A stretch of 36,967 nucleotides of DNA. Source: Magnetococcales bacterium (GTDB taxonomy: Bacteria > Pseudomonadota > Alphaproteobacteria > UBA2136). Below, piece after piece: positions 2 through 26,088 of the stretch. The notes beneath the pieces were generated by a model. It made no database searches. It saw only the letters and a list, made by a program, of their open reading frames with translations, and was not told the DNA's origin. Positions within the stretch are counted from its first letter, which is position 1; each line of letters starts with the position of its first letter. Location: assembly GCA_002689455.1 (NCBI GenBank), contig NZGE01000045.1, forward strand, positions 1 through 36,967. Reading direction: 5' to 3'. The position numbers and the translations under genes were made by a program.

Positions 2-526
2 AGAACTGTTGTTTGTAAACGTAACGACGGTGTAACCGTAGCTGATGGAAATTGTTCTGGCGCGAAACCTGCAAACTCTCAAACTTGTAATACAACTGCT
101 TGTGCAACATACAGCTGGCAAACTGGATCATGGGGCACTTGTTCTGTTACTTGTGGTGGTGGTACACAAACAAGAACTGTTAGTTGTAAGCGTAATGATG
201 GTGTAACAGTAAGTTCTACCTATTGCTCTGGAACAAAGCCAGCCGCATCGCAAACTTGTAATACACAATCTTGCAATGCTTCATGTACAATCCGTCACCC
301 GATAGGGTGGTACGGTGCAGGCCGTCTTAACCCACCTCACTGTATTGAATATTACCTACGTCCAGGTGGAACAATAGGGACATCAACACTCGCACATGGA
401 TCAAGCGCAATGAGAAGTGCAAGATACTGTGCAAACGGACAATGTTGGGGCACAATTCGTTATGAGTGTGATAACGGCTCTATGAGGATTACATCAAAAA
501 CATGTAACTATGGCCTTCAGCCATAA
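2..526 (+). CDS. Thrombospondin type-1 repeat protein, C-terminal part (5' truncated by window)
   Basis: An open frame enters from the window edge and ends at TAA 524-526; its start lies upstream. It encodes the end of one thrombospondin type-1 (TSP1) repeat, then a complete one with the usual W-x-x-x-x-W and C-S-V-T-C-G-G-G elements, then a Cys-rich tail of about 75 residues that I do not recognise. The DNA repeats with a period of 171 nt (57 residues): AGAACTGTT occurs at 2 and 173, followed each time by a similar C-K-R-N-D-G-V-T-V sequence. TSP1 repeats are disulphide-bonded extracellular adhesion modules, common in animals and scattered in bacterial surface or secreted proteins. The many paired cysteines imply an exported location. 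A strong terminator follows. The function is unknown; an adhesin is a guess from the domain. Confidence 0.85.
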   Translation, partial: RTVVCKRNDGVTVADGNCSGAKPANSQTCNTTACATYSWQTGSWGTCSVTCGGGTQTRTVSCKRNDGVTVSSTYCSGTKPAASQTCNTQSCNASCTIRHPIGWYGAGRLNPPHCIEYYLRPGGTIGTSTLAHGSSAMRSARYCANGQCWGTIRYECDNGSMRITSKTCNYGLQP

Positions 527-16958: not shown

Positions 16959-17522
16959 ATGCGTTTTATAAACAATCTTAAATCTCAAAAAGGCGCATTA
17001 TTTGGTATGGACGCCCGCATTACACTAGCCATTTTTAGTGGCCTGAGTGTCATTGCCGGCACAGCAGGATATGGCTATATGCAACAAACACAAGTCACAT
17101 CACTGGCAACAGAGTTAGATAACATTTCTAAAGCATACGCAAACTTCCAACTGGACACGAGTGTCAATACAAAAAACTTTAGCGACCTTCTCAATAATGA
17201 TGGAGGCCAACTTGGCTGGAACGGTCCATACATGATCATGTCATCAGACAAACATGTATCCTTTGGAACCTACAGCCTCGAATACGGCATTGAAATGCGT
17301 AAAATCAAAGGAAAAAGCCCACGCCCTTGCGTAAACCGCCGAGATCTATGTTTTGTTTGGGCTAAGCTCACAGAAGTACCATCAACACTGGCAGCTGCCG
17401 TGGATGAACACATTGATGGAGAGTTAGACGAAAAAGGGACACCTGATAGTGGAAGACTTCTTGTTGACCTTGACCAATCGACAGATAAAGCTACGCTATA
17501 TTACCGCATTTCTAGAAAATAA
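16959..17522 (+). CDS. Type IV pilin-like protein, first gene of a T2SS/T4P-like locus
   Basis: 187 residues. A short basic leader ends at G12, followed by A-L-F-G-M-D-A-R-I and a hydrophobic stretch of about 20, giving the prepilin pattern. The usual F at +1 and E at +5 are replaced by A at +1 and D at +6. Downstream are N-G-P-Y-M, as in GspG-type W-x-G-P-Y, and a C-terminal part with a likely disulphide (R-P-C to D-L-C) and D-E-H-I-D-G-E-L-D. The gene is followed by two stem-loops and a terminator before gspE, so its transcript may be much more abundant than the rest, as for a major pilin. The family is inferred from leader and context. Confidence 0.75.
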   Translation: MRFINNLKSQKGALFGMDARITLAIFSGLSVIAGTAGYGYMQQTQVTSLATELDNISKAYANFQLDTSVNTKNFSDLLNNDGGQLGWNGPYMIMSSDKHVSFGTYSLEYGIEMRKIKGKSPRPCVNRRDLCFVWAKLTEVPSTLAAAVDEHIDGELDEKGTPDSGRLLVDLDQSTDKATLYYRISRK

Positions 17523-17530
17523 GCAGAAGC

Positions 17531-17570
17531 GCGCAAAAGTGTGTGAAAAAAAGCGCATCACACTTAGCGC
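17531..17570 (+). other. Long stem-loop after the first pilin gene
   Basis: GCGC and AAGTGTG (17531-17543) pair with CACACTT and GCGC (17559-17570), with a 1-2-nt internal mismatch and a 15-nt A-rich loop. It lies 8 nt after the pilin stop and precedes a separate terminator. A 3'-end mRNA stabiliser is possible. Confidence 0.5.
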
Positions 17571-17595
17571 ACTTTATATAAATACACCAAACTTT

Positions 17596-17626
17596 AACGC
17601 CAAACATTTCCAGTTTGGCGTTTTAT
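17596..17626 (+). terminator. Terminator between pilin and gspE
   Basis: AACGCCAAAC (17596-17605) and GTTTGGCGTT (17613-17622) form a perfect 10-bp stem with a 7-nt loop followed by TTAT. Leaky termination here would lower expression of the downstream machinery relative to the pilin. Confidence 0.75.
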
Positions 17627-17673
17627 CATGTAAACTACAGAAGGATTAATCTATTTAAACAGGGGGCCTTACA

Positions 17674-19371
17674 TTGGATATTGTTGACTTAATGATCAGC
17701 GACCATATTGTAACAATTGGAGACTTACAGGGCTTCCCTGTAACTGTACAAAAAGACCCTGATGCACTTATTGAAGCCCTTGGGCGTGCCGGTAAACTTT
17801 CTGAAGTTCAACAAATGCGTTACCGTGCAATTGCATATGACTACACCATCAAAACCGATGAAGAAATGATGGCAACAACGCCTCACCAAATCGATGGCAT
17901 TGACCGTGAGTTTATGACATTTTACACAGCTTGCCCTATTGAACTTGCGCGTGGGACAATCATTTGGGCTGCTGCTGACCTTCCGAACAAACGATTAGTA
18001 AGTGAAATTGTTTTAAGACACAGAAAATCACGCCACGAATTTGTTTGGGCTACACCAAAGGCGATTGAAGGTGCTATCGAGCGCATGTCCAAGCGTGAAG
18101 GTCACTCATTAAAATTCTTAGTTGAAAATGCTTATGCGCAAATCAACCAAGGGAATGATGATGCTATCGTTTCATTGACGGATGAAATTATCCGCACAGC
18201 CTTTAAAAATGGCGCAACCGATTTACATATTGAAATTTTAAACCGTAAACCAACCGTTCTGGCACGTATTGACGGGGAATTAGAAGAACTTGTACCGCTT
18301 CCTGTAGAGGTTTACGAGCGTGTACTTGGTCGCTTGCGTCACATTGCAGGTGTGCGTGCAGAAAACTACAAAAAGCCACTTTACGGCCGTATGACTTTTG
18401 ACCTGTCTTCACGTCAACAAGTTGATATTCGCTACACAACCCAACCAATTACCCTTGAAGGCACTGCCAAAATTGCAATGCGTTTCTTGCGCTCATTTGA
18501 AGGTAACTTAGATAATTTTGGCTATGCCAGCACAACTATTGAAAAAGTGGACAATTTAATGCGCTTTGAAGAGGGCTGCATTATCTTTTCAGGGCCAACG
18601 GGTTCTGGTAAATCAACAGCAGCTCGCTTGATGATTCGTCGAGGCCAACGCCCTGGACAAAACGTTATCTCATATGAAAAACAAATTGAGGAACGTATGG
18701 ATAACGTTATTCAAACCGAAGAAGATACATCGGCTGGTTTGAACTTAGAAACATTTATGTATGCAGCACTTGGATTAGACCCAGATGTAATGTTTATTGG
18801 TGAGGTACGTAACCCTGAAGATACACAAAAAGCAATTGATGCTGGTAACTTAGGTCATCTTGTAATTACGACAATGCACGCCAACGACACTTTTATGACA
18901 TTGGACAGATTATTACAACGTGGAGTGCCGCCAGAGCAAATTTTTACCAACGTACGTGGCATTATTTCACAGCGTCTAGTAAGAAGGCTTTGCTCTAAAT
19001 GTAAAATTCCTACAGAAATTGATTTAGAACATGCTGACAAATTAAACAAACTTCGTAAAATTGGCTTTAGAGCTGGCGATATCATCTACAGACACAACCA
19101 CAATGGTTGTGAAAACTGCCGTTACCGTGGATACCTAGGCCGTATTGCAATTGAAGAAGTTTTAGAACTATGGCGTAAAGATGTTAGCCGTAATATATGG
19201 ACAAACACACGTTTACGCCCTGATTGGTTAGATATTATACGTGAACAAGCAAGATCGAGCGGGCACATGATTGATATGCTCACAAGTGGCATGCTTCACG
19301 TTAAAAATGGTATTACAAGTATAGAAGAACTGGAGAAATTCTTTAGTGCAGATATGGAAACAATTCAGTAA
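17674..19371 (+). CDS. gspE: GspE/PilB-type assembly ATPase
   Basis: 565 residues, the cytoplasmic hexameric ATPase that powers pseudopilus or pilus growth. An N-terminal domain (about 1-150) links it to the inner-membrane platform. The core has the helical-interface sequence A-T-D-L-H-I-E, Walker A G-P-T-G-S-G-K-S (about 307-314), a Walker B-type segment D-P-D-V-M-F-I-G-E-V-R-N (about 369-380), the His box T-M-H-A-N-D, and a C-terminal zinc site of two CxxC pairs (C-S-K-C about 440, C-E-N-C about 479). The segment between Walker motifs is unlike common GspE or PilB. The TTG start at 17674 is supported by AGGGGG 7 nt before it. It overlaps gspF by 26 nt. Confidence 0.93.
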   Translation: MDIVDLMISDHIVTIGDLQGFPVTVQKDPDALIEALGRAGKLSEVQQMRYRAIAYDYTIKTDEEMMATTPHQIDGIDREFMTFYTACPIELARGTIIWAAADLPNKRLVSEIVLRHRKSRHEFVWATPKAIEGAIERMSKREGHSLKFLVENAYAQINQGNDDAIVSLTDEIIRTAFKNGATDLHIEILNRKPTVLARIDGELEELVPLPVEVYERVLGRLRHIAGVRAENYKKPLYGRMTFDLSSRQQVDIRYTTQPITLEGTAKIAMRFLRSFEGNLDNFGYASTTIEKVDNLMRFEEGCIIFSGPTGSGKSTAARLMIRRGQRPGQNVISYEKQIEERMDNVIQTEEDTSAGLNLETFMYAALGLDPDVMFIGEVRNPEDTQKAIDAGNLGHLVITTMHANDTFMTLDRLLQRGVPPEQIFTNVRGIISQRLVRRLCSKCKIPTEIDLEHADKLNKLRKIGFRAGDIIYRHNHNGCENCRYRGYLGRIAIEEVLELWRKDVSRNIWTNTRLRPDWLDIIREQARSSGHMIDMLTSGMLHVKNGITSIEELEKFFSADMETIQ

Positions 19372-20440
19372 CGACGGCATTGGGCCAAGATGTCGTGAAA
19401 TAAGCGCACGTGACCGTGAACGCTTATTTTTCTTGATGCACCAAATGCTCAAAAGTGGGCAACCCACTGAAGCATGCGTACGTGCTGTTGCCCGTGCATT
19501 CCGATCTGAGAAGAAAGAAGAACTTAGCGCTGCTTTACACGGTATCGCACAAAAGGTTTCACAAGGTAAACCTCTTAGCCGTGCTGCTGAACATGAATAT
19601 GTCCTGTTTACAGATATTCACCGTGCGGCGATTCTTGCAGGTGAAGCCTCAAACAATATGACCCAAGCTTTTGCGCTTTTACAAGAGCTAGAGGACAAGA
19701 AACTTAAAAACCAGCGCAGTGGTATGGCTGAAATTATTACACCAACCGTCCTTTTCTTTATGAGCTGTATTTCCATGTTCAACACAGGCTTAAACACCAT
19801 GCCTACAATGGCACAAATGCGCCAAGCACAGGGCAAAGAAATGGCAGCAATTCCACAAGCTTTAATGGAATTTACTGCCGTAACAGCTGAATACTGGTAT
19901 TTCATTTTAAGCGGCTTTATCATTTTTTGTGTAACGGCTTATAGTGTTGCCAAGTCCGCTCAGGGTAGATTTTGGCTAGATAGTTACATACTACGTATAC
20001 CTGGGTTTGGTAAGTACATTACATATAAAACATATGCCAGCATGCTTTTATACTTCCCACACTTAATTGCCAGTGGGGTTAAACCAAAACAGATGATTCC
20101 AATTATGGAAGCTTTAGCTACAAACGCTATTTTAAAAAGGCGTATTGACCTGTTTAACCAGGTCATTACAACAGGTGGGCAAATGTCAGATGCGATGGAA
20201 AAAGCAGGTTTTCCGATGATTTCGGTAACACCTGTAAAAGTATCCGAAACATATGCTGGTAACGAAAAAGGCATTAATGATGTAATGATTGAAGGTATGC
20301 ACCATTCCTATTCAATTTTAGAACGTGAATTAACCGATGCTTACACACAATTTGTGAGCGTCTTTTCAACCATTATGTGGCTACTTGGGGGCGCTGTATT
20401 GCTCCTTGAAATGCTTGCCATTGTTATGTCGCAAAACTAA
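19346..20440 (+). CDS. gspF: GspF/PilC-type inner-membrane platform protein
   Basis: 364 residues with two T2SF domains. The first, cytoplasmic, includes L-F-F-L-M-H-Q-M-L-K-S-G near residue 30 and is followed by a membrane helix near 127-147. After a second helix near 175-198 comes the repeat domain with S-M-L-L-Y-F-P-H-L-I-A-S-G-V near 230, and a final helix near 340-360. GspF couples the ATPase to pseudopilin extrusion. The GTG start (19346) overlaps the end of gspE, with GGAG 10 nt upstream. The protein is slightly shorter than most relatives (about 400) because the N-terminus is reduced. Confidence 0.9.
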   Translation: MQIWKQFSNDGIGPRCREISARDRERLFFLMHQMLKSGQPTEACVRAVARAFRSEKKEELSAALHGIAQKVSQGKPLSRAAEHEYVLFTDIHRAAILAGEASNNMTQAFALLQELEDKKLKNQRSGMAEIITPTVLFFMSCISMFNTGLNTMPTMAQMRQAQGKEMAAIPQALMEFTAVTAEYWYFILSGFIIFCVTAYSVAKSAQGRFWLDSYILRIPGFGKYITYKTYASMLLYFPHLIASGVKPKQMIPIMEALATNAILKRRIDLFNQVITTGGQMSDAMEKAGFPMISVTPVKVSETYAGNEKGINDVMIEGMHHSYSILERELTDAYTQFVSVFSTIMWLLGGAVLLLEMLAIVMSQN

Positions 20441-20457
20441 GTAAGGGAACGGAGAAA

Positions 20458-21594
20458 ATGTCCAAAAGCTTTGAATTAGGTCAAAAGTTTAAAAACATAT
20501 GCTTTCTAGGCTTAAACCGTGTCGAGTATTTCCCTGAAAGCTCAGATGAATCTATTTTTGCAGATACATGGCAAGATGTCACAGATGAACAATCACGACG
20601 TAATTTAGCCATACTCTTTTTTGCACCGCGTGACCTTGATGGTGAACCTCTCGACCCATACATTTTCTTAACCGATACAGATGATGATGCTGATGAACAG
20701 AGCGTTTTAATAGCACAACAAGCCTTTGGAGATATCCCGCTTATAGATATGTGCCGTATGCGTTGTAATAACGCCAATGAAGTTCATATTCTTGTAACAG
20801 GTGACATCATATTCCATTGGGATAGCAATGACAGTTATGTTCAGCCAACATCACCTGTATCATGGGTGCGTGATATTCAAAATATCCTTAAAACATACCC
20901 AAGAACAACAGAAAGATATCTATATACATCTTGGGAGAACAACCGTGTAAATGAACTTGGTGTCAAAATTAGACCTGTACAAGAACTGGTGATATCTGAA
21001 GATGCTTGGGTAAACATGCCAAGCTTCCAAGAAAAATTTGGGTTCGCTGTGATGTTTACATCAATCCTTATTGCAGTGATGACTTACATACTTATTTTCT
21101 TACAAGGCAGTGATATTGATGACTTGTCACAAAAGATTAGGACAGTTGACCTAGAAACACCTTCTGGTAAAAACTACCTTGAACTTAACCGTGCGATTAC
21201 AGAGCAACAACAATTTATGCGATACAGAAATTTAATATCATTTGTAACCACAGATGTTGCAAGCGCCATTCAAAGGTCTGGTATGAAAATTTCAACATTT
21301 GAGATTAAAACTCCTGACTCTCAAGAACCTTCGGATGTATTACTTGTTACAATCAAATCACAAAAAGATGCTTATAAGGGATGGCTTGAAGAAGAACCTA
21401 TCAGCAAGGCATTGCTTGGACAAAGTGTTACAATGTCAGCAATTCGTCGCCCTCCAGGTGGAACACAATTCACTGTTGAAGGACTTGTTGAGCTTGAACC
21501 TATTTCACAAATGCTTGCAGAATACCAAGAAGATGTGAAGCGCTCACAACAACAAACACTCAGCACCGTTGCCAATCAAGGAGAGGGAGAATAA
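20458..21594 (+). CDS. GspL/PilN-like bitopic assembly protein (diverged)
   Basis: 378 residues with no domain I can name from sequence. The plan is a cytoplasmic domain (1-194), one membrane helix (about 195-217), a short coiled stretch, and a periplasmic domain of about 150 residues with a ferredoxin-like alternation of strands and helices. That plan, its size and its position after gspF match GspL or PilM-PilN. The cytoplasmic half lacks obvious actin-like phosphate motifs, so it would be a divergent or replaced ATPase-binding domain. It starts 17 nt after gspF and ends 3 nt before the next gene. Role inferred from context. Confidence 0.65.
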   Translation: MSKSFELGQKFKNICFLGLNRVEYFPESSDESIFADTWQDVTDEQSRRNLAILFFAPRDLDGEPLDPYIFLTDTDDDADEQSVLIAQQAFGDIPLIDMCRMRCNNANEVHILVTGDIIFHWDSNDSYVQPTSPVSWVRDIQNILKTYPRTTERYLYTSWENNRVNELGVKIRPVQELVISEDAWVNMPSFQEKFGFAVMFTSILIAVMTYILIFLQGSDIDDLSQKIRTVDLETPSGKNYLELNRAITEQQQFMRYRNLISFVTTDVASAIQRSGMKISTFEIKTPDSQEPSDVLLVTIKSQKDAYKGWLEEEPISKALLGQSVTMSAIRRPPGGTQFTVEGLVELEPISQMLAEYQEDVKRSQQQTLSTVANQGEGE

Positions 21595-21597
21595 GCC

Positions 21598-22104
21598 ATG
21601 ATGAAATTTACACTCGGTATTGCTATTCTTGTTTTCACAGCAATTGTTGGCAGCTATAAATATCTCGAAAATGAAGATTTAATAATCGCAAAACAGCGTG
21701 GACTTATTGAAGCAAAAGATAAGCTGGACAGATACAAACGTATTGAACAGCGCAGCAAACAAATACCTAAATTTGCTGTTGTACGTGGTGATGACAAGAA
21801 GAACATCATTGAACGTTTACTTGAAATTGGTGAACCAGGTTTAAAATTTAACTTTATTGGGCAAGCACGTCGTCAAGATGCTCACCTAGGTATCATTAGG
21901 CATACCTTCAAAATTTCAGGGCCTGCAACCTTCAAAGAAATGCAAGAACTGCTCAAGAAAATGCAAACTTTACCTTCTTTACCAGGCTTTGTTGTTTACA
22001 ACGTTTGCTTTGCATGCGGCGCAACAAACCAAACACTTAAAGAAGACCAACACATGATTAATATAGAAGGGTACTTATATGCGTATGATCCAAACATCAT
22101 TTAA
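21598..22104 (+). CDS. GspM/PilO-like bitopic protein
   Basis: 168 residues: an N-terminal membrane helix (about 3-20), a charged helical region (about 25-55) likely to form a coiled coil, and a small periplasmic domain with two cysteines in C-F-A-C near residues 139-142. The size and architecture match GspM or PilO, which dimerise with GspL or PilN. The C-F-A-C pair is unusual for those families and could bind metal or form a disulphide. Translation of the following gene begins within its last codons (26-nt overlap). Identification rests on topology and position. Confidence 0.6.
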   Translation: MMKFTLGIAILVFTAIVGSYKYLENEDLIIAKQRGLIEAKDKLDRYKRIEQRSKQIPKFAVVRGDDKKNIIERLLEIGEPGLKFNFIGQARRQDAHLGIIRHTFKISGPATFKEMQELLKKMQTLPSLPGFVVYNVCFACGATNQTLKEDQHMINIEGYLYAYDPNII

Positions 22105-23236
22105 TGTTTTATTAGCATCTTCTATATTTATAACAATAGCCCATGGCGCTATTGCTCAAGAAGACAGCCTCCCTTGGCCTAAAACTTTTGTAGGTCAACC
22201 AGACTTTGAGTTCTTAAGACAAGACGTTATTAATGAGTATGAACGTAAAAAAGGCGAAGAGTCCGATAAGTATATTGCAACACTTAAAGACCTACTTACA
22301 TCTAAAGACATCGATCCATTTACACCTCGCCCACTCACGTCAGATATTGGGCGCAGTAAGTACAGCCGTGACGTTTTCGAACAAAGATTTGGACTCAAAA
22401 AACAAAACAGAAAATTTAGAGAAGTATACCCAGAAGTTGAAGTTGGAAGCGGCCTTGAAGTACGTCTTATCAATGGTGTAATAGCACAAGCCGAACTATT
22501 GAGCGATAATCAGGCACGCATTACAGCCGATAATCGCAAAGTTAGAATTGAAGTTGATGATGAAGGTTATGTTATTGAAGCTAACCGTGAAAAAAGCATT
22601 TCAGAGTCATTCGACAACTTATTAGGTGAAAGCAATCAATATATTAAATCAAGCGATTTAATAGAAGACGATGAGCCTTTACCAGAGGTGACCGGGTTGC
22701 CTGAGTACCATATTTCCATCAACAATTTACCTGACCTTGATAAAATTACTGATGAACAAAAAGAAGGTTTGGATGCCTTTGCATCTTTCCTTGAAAACAT
22801 CATCACACAAGCAACCAAGGCACGTGACGCCGATATGAAGGAAATAAACTTTGAGTCCGAACTGGCGAAACTGAGTATTCAGAGTATTGTGACCTCACCA
22901 TACCCGTATGCAATAATTAACAATAAGCGTTATACAGAAGGCGATCGCATTCCTCTTAAAATCACTTATGCTGAAAAAGATACATCTGAAATTGAGCAAT
23001 TAATTGATTCATACATGCCAAATAAGGAAGCTATCAGTGAAGAATCCTACAAGCAATACCTGATACTCAAACAAGACGCACTTGACCAATTTACAGAAAG
23101 AGCCGGTATTTTAGGGCAAAAAACTCAAGGAAACATACATAAGGTAAATGCAACCATAAAAGAAATTAAGTCACGTACTGTTCTATTGGATATGTTAAAC
23201 CAAGAATACAAGCTTGAAATTAAGCTTGCATTATAA
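22079..23236 (+). CDS. Periplasmic GspC/PilP-like subunit
   Basis: 385 residues. A signal sequence or anchor occupies residues 1-27 (G-A-I-A-Q cleavage possible). The middle (about 100-165) has G-L-E-V-R-L-I-N-G-V-I and beta-rich sequence. From about residue 264, S-I-Q-S-I-V-T-S-P-Y-P-Y-A-I-I-N and Y-T-E-G-D-R-I-P-L begin a homology-region-like fold, interrupted by a helical insert and closed by T-I-K-E-I-K-S-R-T-V-L-L. This pattern (no-gap strand, gain, G-D-x-I, I-x-x-I-x-x-x-x-V-x-L) is that of GspC or PilP, which bind the secretin. A GAAGGG motif 8 nt upstream supports ATG 22079. It is inferred to link inner-membrane subunits to an outer-membrane channel. Confidence 0.55.
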   Translation: MRMIQTSFNVLLASSIFITIAHGAIAQEDSLPWPKTFVGQPDFEFLRQDVINEYERKKGEESDKYIATLKDLLTSKDIDPFTPRPLTSDIGRSKYSRDVFEQRFGLKKQNRKFREVYPEVEVGSGLEVRLINGVIAQAELLSDNQARITADNRKVRIEVDDEGYVIEANREKSISESFDNLLGESNQYIKSSDLIEDDEPLPEVTGLPEYHISINNLPDLDKITDEQKEGLDAFASFLENIITQATKARDADMKEINFESELAKLSIQSIVTSPYPYAIINNKRYTEGDRIPLKITYAEKDTSEIEQLIDSYMPNKEAISEESYKQYLILKQDALDQFTERAGILGQKTQGNIHKVNATIKEIKSRTVLLDMLNQEYKLEIKLAL

Positions 23237-23252
23237 ACGAGGAATAAAATAA

Positions 23253-23981
23253 ATGCTTAAAGGACTGAGAAACCAAAAAGGTGCCTTCTCTCCCTTTATG
23301 TTTGGCATGCTCATGGGCGTTGCCGTATTTAGCGCAGCTATGAACCACTGGGCCAAAAAAGAAATTGTAGACATTGAAAAGCAGAATATTCAATCCGAAC
23401 ACCAAAAAGCTGAACAAATAAAACAGGCATTTGAAAACGCAATTTTAACCGAAAATATCAATTCAGATAACGGTTACAGTGAAGAAATGAATTTAGCACG
23501 CGCGCAAAAATTCCTGAGTGGTTCAACAGGTCAAACCAAAAGCGGAGAACAGGCATTTCTAAGTACTGCAATAAAAAGTGGGTCATTTAAAACGAGCAAC
23601 TCGCGTGTATTAATCACAACAAGTGATGATGAAGCTATCAAAGATGAAATTCGTACACTTGGAAGCGATGCTATGGCTGACTATAACAGCGCAGATAGTA
23701 GTGTTGTTATGTTTGATAGCGAAGAAGTGCGTAAAAAACAAATTAAGGAATCTAAAACACTTCTAGAAAGAGAAGCTTCACAAATCTATAGATCCTACAC
23801 AGCCTATAATTATAAGTTCCCAACAGCTGAACAATATAAAACACAAGTAAATGCCGCAACTGGCTTACGTGATGTATGGGGCAGCCCATTTAAATACGAC
23901 CGAAAATCTGATAAAGTCGTTGTACTTTCTTTTACGACGCCTTGGGGCTATACTTATAAAAAACGTTTAGATATGAATTAA
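23253..23981 (+). CDS. Pseudopilin-like protein, GspG-type end domain
   Basis: 242 residues. The leader ends at G10 (N-Q-K-G), followed by A-F-S-P-F-M-F-G-M and a hydrophobic helix, then a long charged helix (about 35-65). There is no acidic residue near +5, unlike standard pilins. The C-terminal part has R-D-V-W-G-S-P-F-K-Y, close to the D-P-W-G-x-P-Y-x-Y motif of GspG-type pseudopilins, then T-P-W-G-Y. The region between (about 80-165) is an insertion without known homology to me. It lies 16 nt after the PilP-like gene and 12 nt before the next pseudopilin gene. Confidence 0.7.
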   Translation: MLKGLRNQKGAFSPFMFGMLMGVAVFSAAMNHWAKKEIVDIEKQNIQSEHQKAEQIKQAFENAILTENINSDNGYSEEMNLARAQKFLSGSTGQTKSGEQAFLSTAIKSGSFKTSNSRVLITTSDDEAIKDEIRTLGSDAMADYNSADSSVVMFDSEEVRKKQIKESKTLLEREASQIYRSYTAYNYKFPTAEQYKTQVNAATGLRDVWGSPFKYDRKSDKVVVLSFTTPWGYTYKKRLDMN

Positions 23982-23993
23982 GAGAATAAAAAA

Positions 23994-24899
23994 ATGATAT
24001 CCTTTAAAAACATAAAAAAATCTCTTCAAAACCAAACAGGTGCTATGTTTGGTATGGACGCCCGAATTGCACTTATTATTGCCAGTGTACTTGCGGCAAC
24101 TGGCGGTGTCACAATGATGTCTAAATTAGAACGAAGTCGTGTAGAAGGTGCTGAAATTGGATTACAAATCATTAAAGACGCCCTTGAAAATCATTATAAA
24201 ACAAAAGGATTCACAGCTTTAGCACCAGATATCCGAACCCTTTTTGAACAAGGCTTTATTGAAGAAACAACCTTAATGCGTGACCCATGGGATAACGAAT
24301 GGCGTTACAACACTTTAACACGCAAAATTAAGTTGAATGATTTTGAAATTACAGAAAATATAGCAACTATTCACACCGCAGGGAAAGACGGTGTAGACGA
24401 CACCCCTGCTCCAACATTTGAAGCTGAATGGAACGTATGGCAACCATTAAACGATGATATAGGTATTAAATACTCAACAATTGAAGTTGAAAAATCACGT
24501 GTATCTGAATACCAAGGGCGTGCGAAACTTATTGTAGATAAACTAGAAGATTACAGCGCAGCTAATTTCATTGAAGCGCAGGCAGAATGCCCTGAGGCAA
24601 CATGGTGCAACAACACACCGAAAGACGGGGACAAATACACAGAATTCAATTTTTATCCTCAATCTAACACAGACAACTCTGGTGCAACTTATTATGACAA
24701 CATCAAAACTGGCGGTAGCAACAGCATTTTTGTATCTGGTGACAGCTTAAGCATGGCAGAGCTTATGAAAACACTTGGATTGCCAGAGGAGTTTGCATTT
24801 GATCCTTGGAAGCGTGTTTTGAAGTATGATTCAAACTTTATTCAGGATCGTCCAAACCCCCATAAACCACCATTTTCGGCATCTATTATTTATGAGTAA
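23994..24899 (+). CDS. GspG-like pseudopilin with internal duplication
   Basis: 301 residues, twice the usual size of GspG. The leader ends at G16 followed by A-M-F-G-M-D-A-R-I, nearly identical to the first pilin of the locus. The first module has R-D-P-W-D-N-E-W-R-Y near residue 97 and T-A-G-K-D-G near 125, the conserved GspG order D-P-W-G ... S-x-G-x-D-G with its calcium-binding type loop. A second module begins near 175 (a helix resembling the first module's helix) and ends with F-D-P-W-K-R-V-L-K-Y near 265-280. The two halves look like tandem copies on one stem. It is followed 2 nt later by the prepilin peptidase gene. Confidence 0.75.
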   Translation: MISFKNIKKSLQNQTGAMFGMDARIALIIASVLAATGGVTMMSKLERSRVEGAEIGLQIIKDALENHYKTKGFTALAPDIRTLFEQGFIEETTLMRDPWDNEWRYNTLTRKIKLNDFEITENIATIHTAGKDGVDDTPAPTFEAEWNVWQPLNDDIGIKYSTIEVEKSRVSEYQGRAKLIVDKLEDYSAANFIEAQAECPEATWCNNTPKDGDKYTEFNFYPQSNTDNSGATYYDNIKTGGSNSIFVSGDSLSMAELMKTLGLPEEFAFDPWKRVLKYDSNFIQDRPNPHKPPFSASIIYE

Positions 24900-24901
24900 T
24901 C

Positions 24902-25495
24902 ATGTGGTGGTATGAAAAAAAGTTTGTGCCTGAACATGAATTCGAAGAAGGGCCTTTTTATAATTTATCCCTGAATAAAGTAACAATATGGGGGGTGATT
25001 GTATTTTACGCTATATTACTCGTCATAAACCTGAATACAGAAACTGTGTTTTCACTCAACAACTTTACAATGATGTGCATTGCACCCATTTTGGCAAGGC
25101 TTACTGCCATCGACTTAAAACATCAACTTTTATTGAATGTTTATGTTTTACCTCTCTTTATAATAGGCCTTATAAATGCTGGGATTTCGCCCAACATGAC
25201 CCTTTTAAGCTCTATCACTGGCGCTGCTATTTCAGGCGGTAGCCTCCTTGCTTTAAACCTATTACTCAGCAAAATAAACAATAAAAACAATATAGGTGGT
25301 GGTGACATTAAGTTTTGTTTTGCAGCTGGTGCATTTATAGGCTTAGAACTTTTACCTTACTTTTTTTGGCTTAGCTTCTTTATAGCACTTATTATGTATC
25401 CACTCTTAAAAGCAAAAAACAAATATATATCATTCGGCCCTGCCCTTATTTTTTCATTATGGATCCTTTTATCCATCCATAATTATTTTTATTAA
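24902..25495 (+). CDS. A24 prepilin peptidase, reduced form
   Basis: 197 residues; an integral membrane aspartic peptidase that removes pilin leaders. Catalytic aspartates are D71 in A-I-D-L-K and D135 in the G-G-G-D motif (132-135), the A24 family signature. About six membrane segments are visible. The cytoplasmic N-methyltransferase domain of PilD/GspO, with its CxxC zinc pairs, is missing, as in small TadV/FlaK-like peptidases. N-methylation of the mature pilin may therefore not occur. A 25-residue hydrophilic N-terminus is present. It closes the secretion-like operon; the next gene has a different role. Confidence 0.88.
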   Translation: MWWYEKKFVPEHEFEEGPFYNLSLNKVTIWGVIVFYAILLVINLNTETVFSLNNFTMMCIAPILARLTAIDLKHQLLLNVYVLPLFIIGLINAGISPNMTLLSSITGAAISGGSLLALNLLLSKINNKNNIGGGDIKFCFAAGAFIGLELLPYFFWLSFFIALIMYPLLKAKNKYISFGPALIFSLWILLSIHNYFY

Positions 25496-25542: not shown

Positions 25543-26088
25543 ATGAATAAATGCGCATGGCCAAATTGTAAAAACGAAGGAACCTTTGCTGCCCCTAAAA
25601 GCACAAAGGACATATACGACCGTCAATACTTCTGCCAAGAACACATCAAAGAGTTCAACAAAAGATGGAATGGCCTTGACGGCATGACCGAAGACGATAT
25701 TTTCTCCATGCAAACAAAGTCCACATGGGAAAGACCTACAAGACGCTTTGGCATTCATGGCGTTAGCGCACAAACTGCTCAATTCACATTTTCAAACGCT
25801 GAAGATTTGTTCAGGTTCTTCAAGCAGCGTCAAAAAGAAGAGAGCATCAAAAAAGCATATGGCTTTGAAGAACAAAAAGATGAAGAAAACTTACCACCAG
25901 ACATCAAAGAAGCATGTTCAATTTTAGGAATTGCTCTTCCCATTGAGTTTACTAACCTTAAGAAAAAATATTTATCTTTAATGAAAAAGCACCACCCAGA
26001 TCTCAACAAAGGATCAAAAAAAGAAGAAGACCACGTTAAAAAAATTAACGTAGCCTTCCAAATTATACAAGATTATATAAGTAAATAG
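25543..26088 (+). CDS. J-domain protein with N-terminal zinc finger
   Basis: 181 residues. The N-terminus contains C-A-W-P-N-C and, about 25 residues later, Y-F-C-Q-E-H, a Cys/His zinc-finger pattern. The middle is Gln/Glu-rich. The C-terminal 60 residues form a J domain with H-H-P-D-L-N-K, so it should recruit DnaK. Proteins of this build are widespread in alphaproteobacteria, often with no set partner. The ATG at 25543 has only a weak ribosome-binding site. It converges with the GntR-family gene, with 2 nt between stops. Confidence 0.85.
   Translation: MNKCAWPNCKNEGTFAAPKSTKDIYDRQYFCQEHIKEFNKRWNGLDGMTEDDIFSMQTKSTWERPTRRFGIHGVSAQTAQFTFSNAEDLFRFFKQRQKEESIKKAYGFEEQKDEENLPPDIKEACSILGIALPIEFTNLKKKYLSLMKKHHPDLNKGSKKEEDHVKKINVAFQIIQDYISK

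Follow-up and report, generated by a model that had tools for sequence, protein, structure and literature searches.

Can a compact set of type IV filament genes that has no secretin gene beside it be a machine of its own, and if so, by what channel would its filament leave the cell? The question is raised by nine plus-strand open reading frames at 16959-25495 of the window, the whole stretch of 36,967 nucleotides analysed here, which is one contig of a 1.6 Mb genome that is 86% complete. We refer to these genes as operon A, and they are arranged as follows.

16959..17522, plus strand: prepilin, 187 aa, N-terminus SQKG/ALFGMDARITLAIF (cut drawn after the G)
17674..19371, plus strand: assembly ATPase of the GspE/PilB superfamily, 565 aa, TTG start
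19346..20440, plus strand: inner-membrane platform of the GspF/PilC superfamily, 364 aa
20458..21594, plus strand: GspL-like protein, 378 aa, with a cytoplasmic domain, one transmembrane segment (197-215) and a periplasmic domain
21598..22104, plus strand: GspM/PilO-like protein, 168 aa, with an N-terminal transmembrane segment and an invariant CxxC
22079..23236, plus strand: GspC/GspB-like periplasmic protein, 385 aa, with a signal-like N-terminus
23253..23981, plus strand: minor prepilin, 242 aa, NQKG/AFSPFMFG, without an acidic residue near +5
23994..24899, plus strand: second prepilin, 301 aa, NQTG/AMFGMDARIALI, with a weak likeness to GspG
24902..25495, plus strand: short A24 prepilin peptidase, 197 aa, with the TAIDLK and GGGDIKF aspartates present

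The junctions from the ATPase to the peptidase range from -26 to +17 bases, with a 26-base overlap at two of them and gaps of 2-17 bases elsewhere, and the widest spacing, 151 bases, lies between the pilin and the ATPase. Since the frames and the gene order are kept across families, this is not a chance run of open reading frames, and the nine tightly spaced plus-strand genes of the preliminary description are borne out by coordinates, junctions and cross-family order. The components by which the type IV filament superfamily is recognized, namely an ATPase, a polytopic platform, prepilins and a prepilin peptidase, are all present. Pfam matches confirm the identities proposed earlier for the ATPase (T2SSE 7e-68, MshEN 2e-5), the platform (T2SSF 4e-16) and the peptidase (Peptidase_A24 4e-15). 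No secretin, PilT or PilU gene was found inside the window.

Operon A belongs to a conserved group. Its ATPase was found at 73-96% identity in 17 of the 18 genomes of one uncultured alphaproteobacterial order (in G014 it is split over two contigs) and at 65-67% identity in further lineages, including UBA12223 and MarineProteo1_Bin2 (both at 65-66%); elsewhere in the class, the matches in a first sample fall to about 30% identity. The close loci come from MAGs of uncultured alphaproteobacteria or proteobacteria, UBA2136 and UBA6156 among them, and no relatives of operon A were found on viral contigs. Several families keep the order pilin, E, F, L, M, P, pp1, pp2, peptidase and J-domain protein, whereas family f2 and some others have no head pilin next to the operon. 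The J-domain protein, at 25543-26088 of the window, has an N-terminal part containing Cys and follows the peptidase in most families. At the edge of the contig, the window also carries the C-terminal end of a protein with TSP1-like repeats (SWGTCSVTCGGGTQTRTVSC, 2-526, plus strand), which the edge cuts. This protein was considered as a tip adhesin of A and set aside, as it is truncated at the contig end and the sister genome G001 has nothing corresponding to it upstream of TyrS.

To which branch of the superfamily does this machine belong? The equivalog models nearest to the ATPase are PilB and then GspE, both of which it misses by far (252 bits against a cut-off of 676, and 226 bits against 630), and the platform likewise lies far under the GspF equivalog cut-off. 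In the ATPase tree, the A sequences form a clade (100/99) outside those of PilB (100/99) and GspE (100/99). Because of long-branch joins, the tree was rebuilt without the VirB11-like outgroup. In this reduced tree, the A clade is supported at 100/100 and groups (98/99) with system B, a second machine of the same genome that is described below, with the R64-type PilQ and with three alphaproteobacterial ATPases, away from PilB and GspE and on long branches. A single ATPase clade of A and B is neither rejected nor shown (p-AU 0.27). In the platform tree, the A clade (100/100) stands outside the GspF and PilC clades, and is nearest to B and to R64 PilR with low support. Given the long branches, the trees place A near type IVb pili without proving kinship, and operon A is best read from these comparisons as a deep, long-branched, probably type IVb-like lineage. 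The suggestion of a distinct lineage is thus upheld by both sets of trees and by the gene order kept in relatives. The three alphaproteobacterial ATPases (L034, L035 and L036, from three families) form a clade of their own (100/100) near the A, B and type IVb ATPases and outside the labelled known types used. In the genome of operon A (86% complete), the only matches besides the A and B ATPases were VirB11-like and ClpB proteins; PilT was not found there, which leaves the machine without a dedicated retraction motor. The extra ATPases read in G001 and G004 are also VirB11-like.

Except for T2SSB on the sixth gene, the three linkers between the platform and the minor prepilin have no Pfam match, and their assignment as GspL-, GspM- and GspC-like proteins holds as a set of likenesses, because of their fold, profile and T2SSB matches. 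The GspL-like protein, whose AlphaFold model has a pLDDT of 83.7, finds its best PDB folds in the GspL cytoplasmic domains 4pht_Y and 1w97 (prob 0.97-0.99, at modest E values of 0.002-0.003), and also matches PilO. Homology to its system B counterpart by profile match (24.5%) was too weak to count. The GspM-like protein matches its system B counterpart over 143 profile columns (98.5%, E 4e-15). Its CxxC (C137 and C140) is invariant in 18 of 18 aligned orthologues and is possibly redox- or metal-linked. The sixth protein has a T2SSB match of 0.0011, seen in 11 of its 18 orthologues (best 8e-6), and matches its system B counterpart by profile (87%, E 4e-6). In a low-confidence model, its fold is similar to that of the GspC HR domain 3oss_C (prob 1.00, TM by target 0.75, E 0.31) and also to GspB 4wfw. 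A bridge of the type II kind, with GspC HR domain, GspL and GspM, is therefore recognized here by fold and profile, in the sixth protein from this low-confidence model. The HR domain is the part of GspC that contacts the secretin and is secretin-bound in 3oss, so machine A appears to be built to meet a secretin. This argues against the idea that A works without any secretin, its filament being confined to the periplasm or leaving by another exit, although none lies beside operon A in any genome examined.

In the prepilins, the register of the acidic residue is peculiar. An invariant glutamate at +5 has been described for pilins (PMC5207764). No Glu is found in the A prepilins at this position, where type IVb prepilins would have it; in the head pilin and the second prepilin, an Asp falls at +6 for a cut after the invariant Gly, and at +5 for one after the Ala. 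The head pilin, which has no Pfam match, and the second prepilin (Pfam T2SSG 0.0026, under the cut-off) have in common the motif G-A-[MLV]-F-[GS]-[MLV]-D-A-R-[IV], in the families having them, with the variant G-V-M-F in UBA12223. The minor prepilin at 23253 reads mostly G-[AGNV]-[FV]-S-P-F in the relatives that were read, without an acid. GspK-type tip pilins have been described as lacking the +5 glutamate (PMC5207764). Of the absences noted in the preliminary description (secretin, PilT and GspK), the first two stand for the window; that of GspK may not hold, since the 23253 prepilin lacks an acid in the +5 region. In family f2 (L046, L049, L050, L051, L057 and L059), the second prepilin is kept and no head pilin lies beside the operon, and in some of these loci the peptidase was also not recognized; the second prepilin is a candidate for the main subunit in this family.

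The genome contains two secretin genes, both outside the window and neither near A. They belong to the following two loci.

L003, 1112-14610 (contig C34 of G000, L001/L003): system B, a second complete type IVb-like machine
L004, 8708-11148 (contig C62, L002/L004): unit C, a pair of TcpQ-like protein and lipoprotein secretin

System B runs in the order TcpQ-like protein, secretin, pilin, E, F, L, M, P, pilins and peptidase, which is the order of A with a two-gene head. The head consists of a weakly TcpQ-like protein of 395 aa and an adjacent lipoprotein secretin of 608 aa, and by analogy it shows what the missing secretin head of A would look like. The major prepilin of system B reads AG/YTIDQT, which puts the acid at +4 for a cut after the Gly. 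Unit C, consisting of a weakly TcpQ-like protein of 239 aa and a lipoprotein secretin of 573 aa, sits at a distant housekeeping locus, beside putA, glmU and glmS. Its secretin has the lipobox LSAC and a conserved secretin core. The TcpQ match is present in 8 of 12 orthologues of the helper, all under the Pfam cut-off (best 0.006). The secretins of B and C are homologous by profile comparison (99.7%, E 1e-26), as are the TcpQ-like parts of the two pairs (96.5%), and the secretin tree has one clade for B and one for C, both on the R64 PilN side and away from GspD. In the case of the toxin-coregulated pilus, the stability of the secretin and its placement in the outer membrane need TcpQ (PMC4971541).

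Which secretin would serve A is suggested by co-distribution. Unit C is present in all 17 genomes of the order that have A, with three cases cut by a contig end, and G005 (78% complete) has neither A nor C while having the B secretin and a GspD-type one. Among 385 genomes of the class, the A-ATPase profile (cut-off 1e-100) and the C-secretin profile (1e-40) find matches in the same nine; the chance of this overlap is about 2e-18 if genomes are independent, a value that greatly overstates the evidence because the nine are related. UBA12223 and MarineProteo1_Bin2 both keep A and C, on different contigs. The two loci lie on one contig in G198, G292 and G077, 21-24 kb apart with housekeeping genes between them, and are about 44 kb apart in G001. 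Inheritance of A, B and C runs within a single group, so that the co-distribution rests on that group, on one double absence (G005) and on two incomplete genomes without B, and not on many independent events.

One alternative is that A uses the secretin of system B, in which case unit C would have another role or be a relic. Almost every genome of the order does have both A and B, and the candidate secretins, B and C, are not separated by the main split of the secretin tree. However, G016 and MarineProteo1_Bin2 have A and C with no B secretin in the assembled part (these genomes are incomplete or of unstated completeness), G005 has B without A and C, and the C secretin, with a mean column identity of 59% over 12 genomes, is too well conserved to look like a relic. 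Such sharing is also compatible with a branch-length correlation between machine proteins and secretins, in which A_L and A_M favoured C; this correlation was discarded because the control, the B ATPase, also preferred C, the wrong secretin. We regard the sharing of the B secretin as improbable. A channel borrowed from another system, as the preliminary description had it, is less likely in general, as each machine has a secretin to itself in the genomes examined; G004 and G008, for example, have three assembly ATPases and three secretins. Some genomes have a further machine with a GspD-type secretin of 619-1132 aa (L060, L061, L062, L244 and L245); in G004 and G005, the ATPase of this machine groups with GspE.

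The earlier proposal that the machine works without a secretin has to give way to the TcpQ-like/secretin pair at a second locus. Unit C was found together with A in every case in which it was sought, and the paralogous system B has a secretin head, which makes a secretin-less A highly improbable. With a secretin available at genome scale, operon A is a real, distinct type IV filament lineage and is not secretin-less genome-wide. The preliminary description had expected that a second-locus secretin, together with nesting of the ATPase and platform in a type IVa pilus or type II secretion clade, would speak against a separate lineage; the secretin pair was found at a second locus, but the nesting was not.

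Several known systems can be compared with A. In type IVb pili (R64 thin, toxin-coregulated, longus and Cof), there is likewise a lipoprotein secretin with a TcpQ-type neighbour, which A would have by its inferred pairing with C; the A platform is similarly short (364 aa, against 365 in an R64-like plasmid), and the ATPases and platforms lie in the same part of the trees. A differs from them in having no close sequence kinship, in the position of its secretin pair far from the operon, in its GspL-like protein and, if the cut follows the invariant Gly, in a prepilin acid off the usual +5 register. With the type IVa pilus the differences prevail, the A ATPase being outside the PilB clade and PilT not being found. 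In system B, the order from pilin to peptidase is the same as in A, with M clearly related, P related and L weakly so; nevertheless, its ATPase is only 34% identical to that of A, its minor prepilins are canonical (GFTLPE and GFTIVE), unlike those of A, and A has no adjacent TcpQ-like/secretin head of its own.

The type II secretion system shares with A the GspL-, GspM- and GspC/GspB-like bridge and an acid-less prepilin as in GspK, and its secretin gene also sometimes lies apart, according to Denise et al. 2019 (PMC6668835). A could accordingly be a diverged type II secretion system that makes pseudopilins only, a reading that concerns the product and overlaps with our preferred one on the secretin. 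The GspL-type protein, the GspB/GspC-like sixth protein, the weakly GspG-like second prepilin, the GspK-like prepilin without acid, the lack of PilT and the setting of gspD as a loner in that same study would all fit. Against it, A has fewer pseudopilins, its ATPase and platform stand outside the GspE/GspF clades and far under the equivalog cut-offs, and G004, G198 and KhW_metabat.34 carry a separate GspD-type secretin; on balance we consider this reading somewhat unlikely.

In Denise et al. 2019 (PMC6668835), T4bP-like systems are basal among the bacterial ones, gspD is a loner in the T2SS model and the T4bP is treated as multi-locus, so that a detached secretin gene has precedents. The unusual feature here is a TcpQ-secretin pair that stays detached as a unit over deep divergence, while the paralogous machine kept its own pair in place. 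Like the "Generic" systems of that study, A has an ATPase, a platform and a pilin and fits no named clade tested. The lineage is not described in the text of that study that we cite, whose main text does not contain the word "Alphaproteobacteria", and no reports were found in the literature on an "orphan secretin" with a T2SS or on UBA2136 pili.

Taken together, A is probably a type IVb-like filament machine whose exit is the secretin of the remote unit C, the head having split off long ago. Its A24 peptidase would trim the prepilins, and the ATPase and platform would push the subunits into a filament, the predicted product. The GspL-like, GspM-like and HR-domain proteins would bridge the periplasm, and the filament would exit via the lipoprotein secretin of unit C, the putative channel of A, with the help of the TcpQ-like protein. 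The secretin head would have separated from the rest of A before these lineages diverged. As to the product, we lean slightly towards a surface pilus, and a secretion pseudopilus is a serious possibility. A further reading, which we find distinctly unlikely, is that A and C constitute a class of type IV filament machine of their own, which goes back to the ancestor of a deep alphaproteobacterial-type group, with an independent secretin module and a pilin that packs with a shifted acid (G/AMFGLDARIAL); if this is true, the shifted acid implies a different subunit docking rule.

Operon A adds to the uncultured alphaproteobacteria a deep type IV filament lineage of which we found no description. 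The paralogous, linked version of the machine (B) in the same cell is a natural comparison for A, and the shifted prepilin motif leads to a specific prediction on subunit docking. The case also shows how joint occurrence across many genomes can account for a "missing secretin", and it names the gene pair to test.
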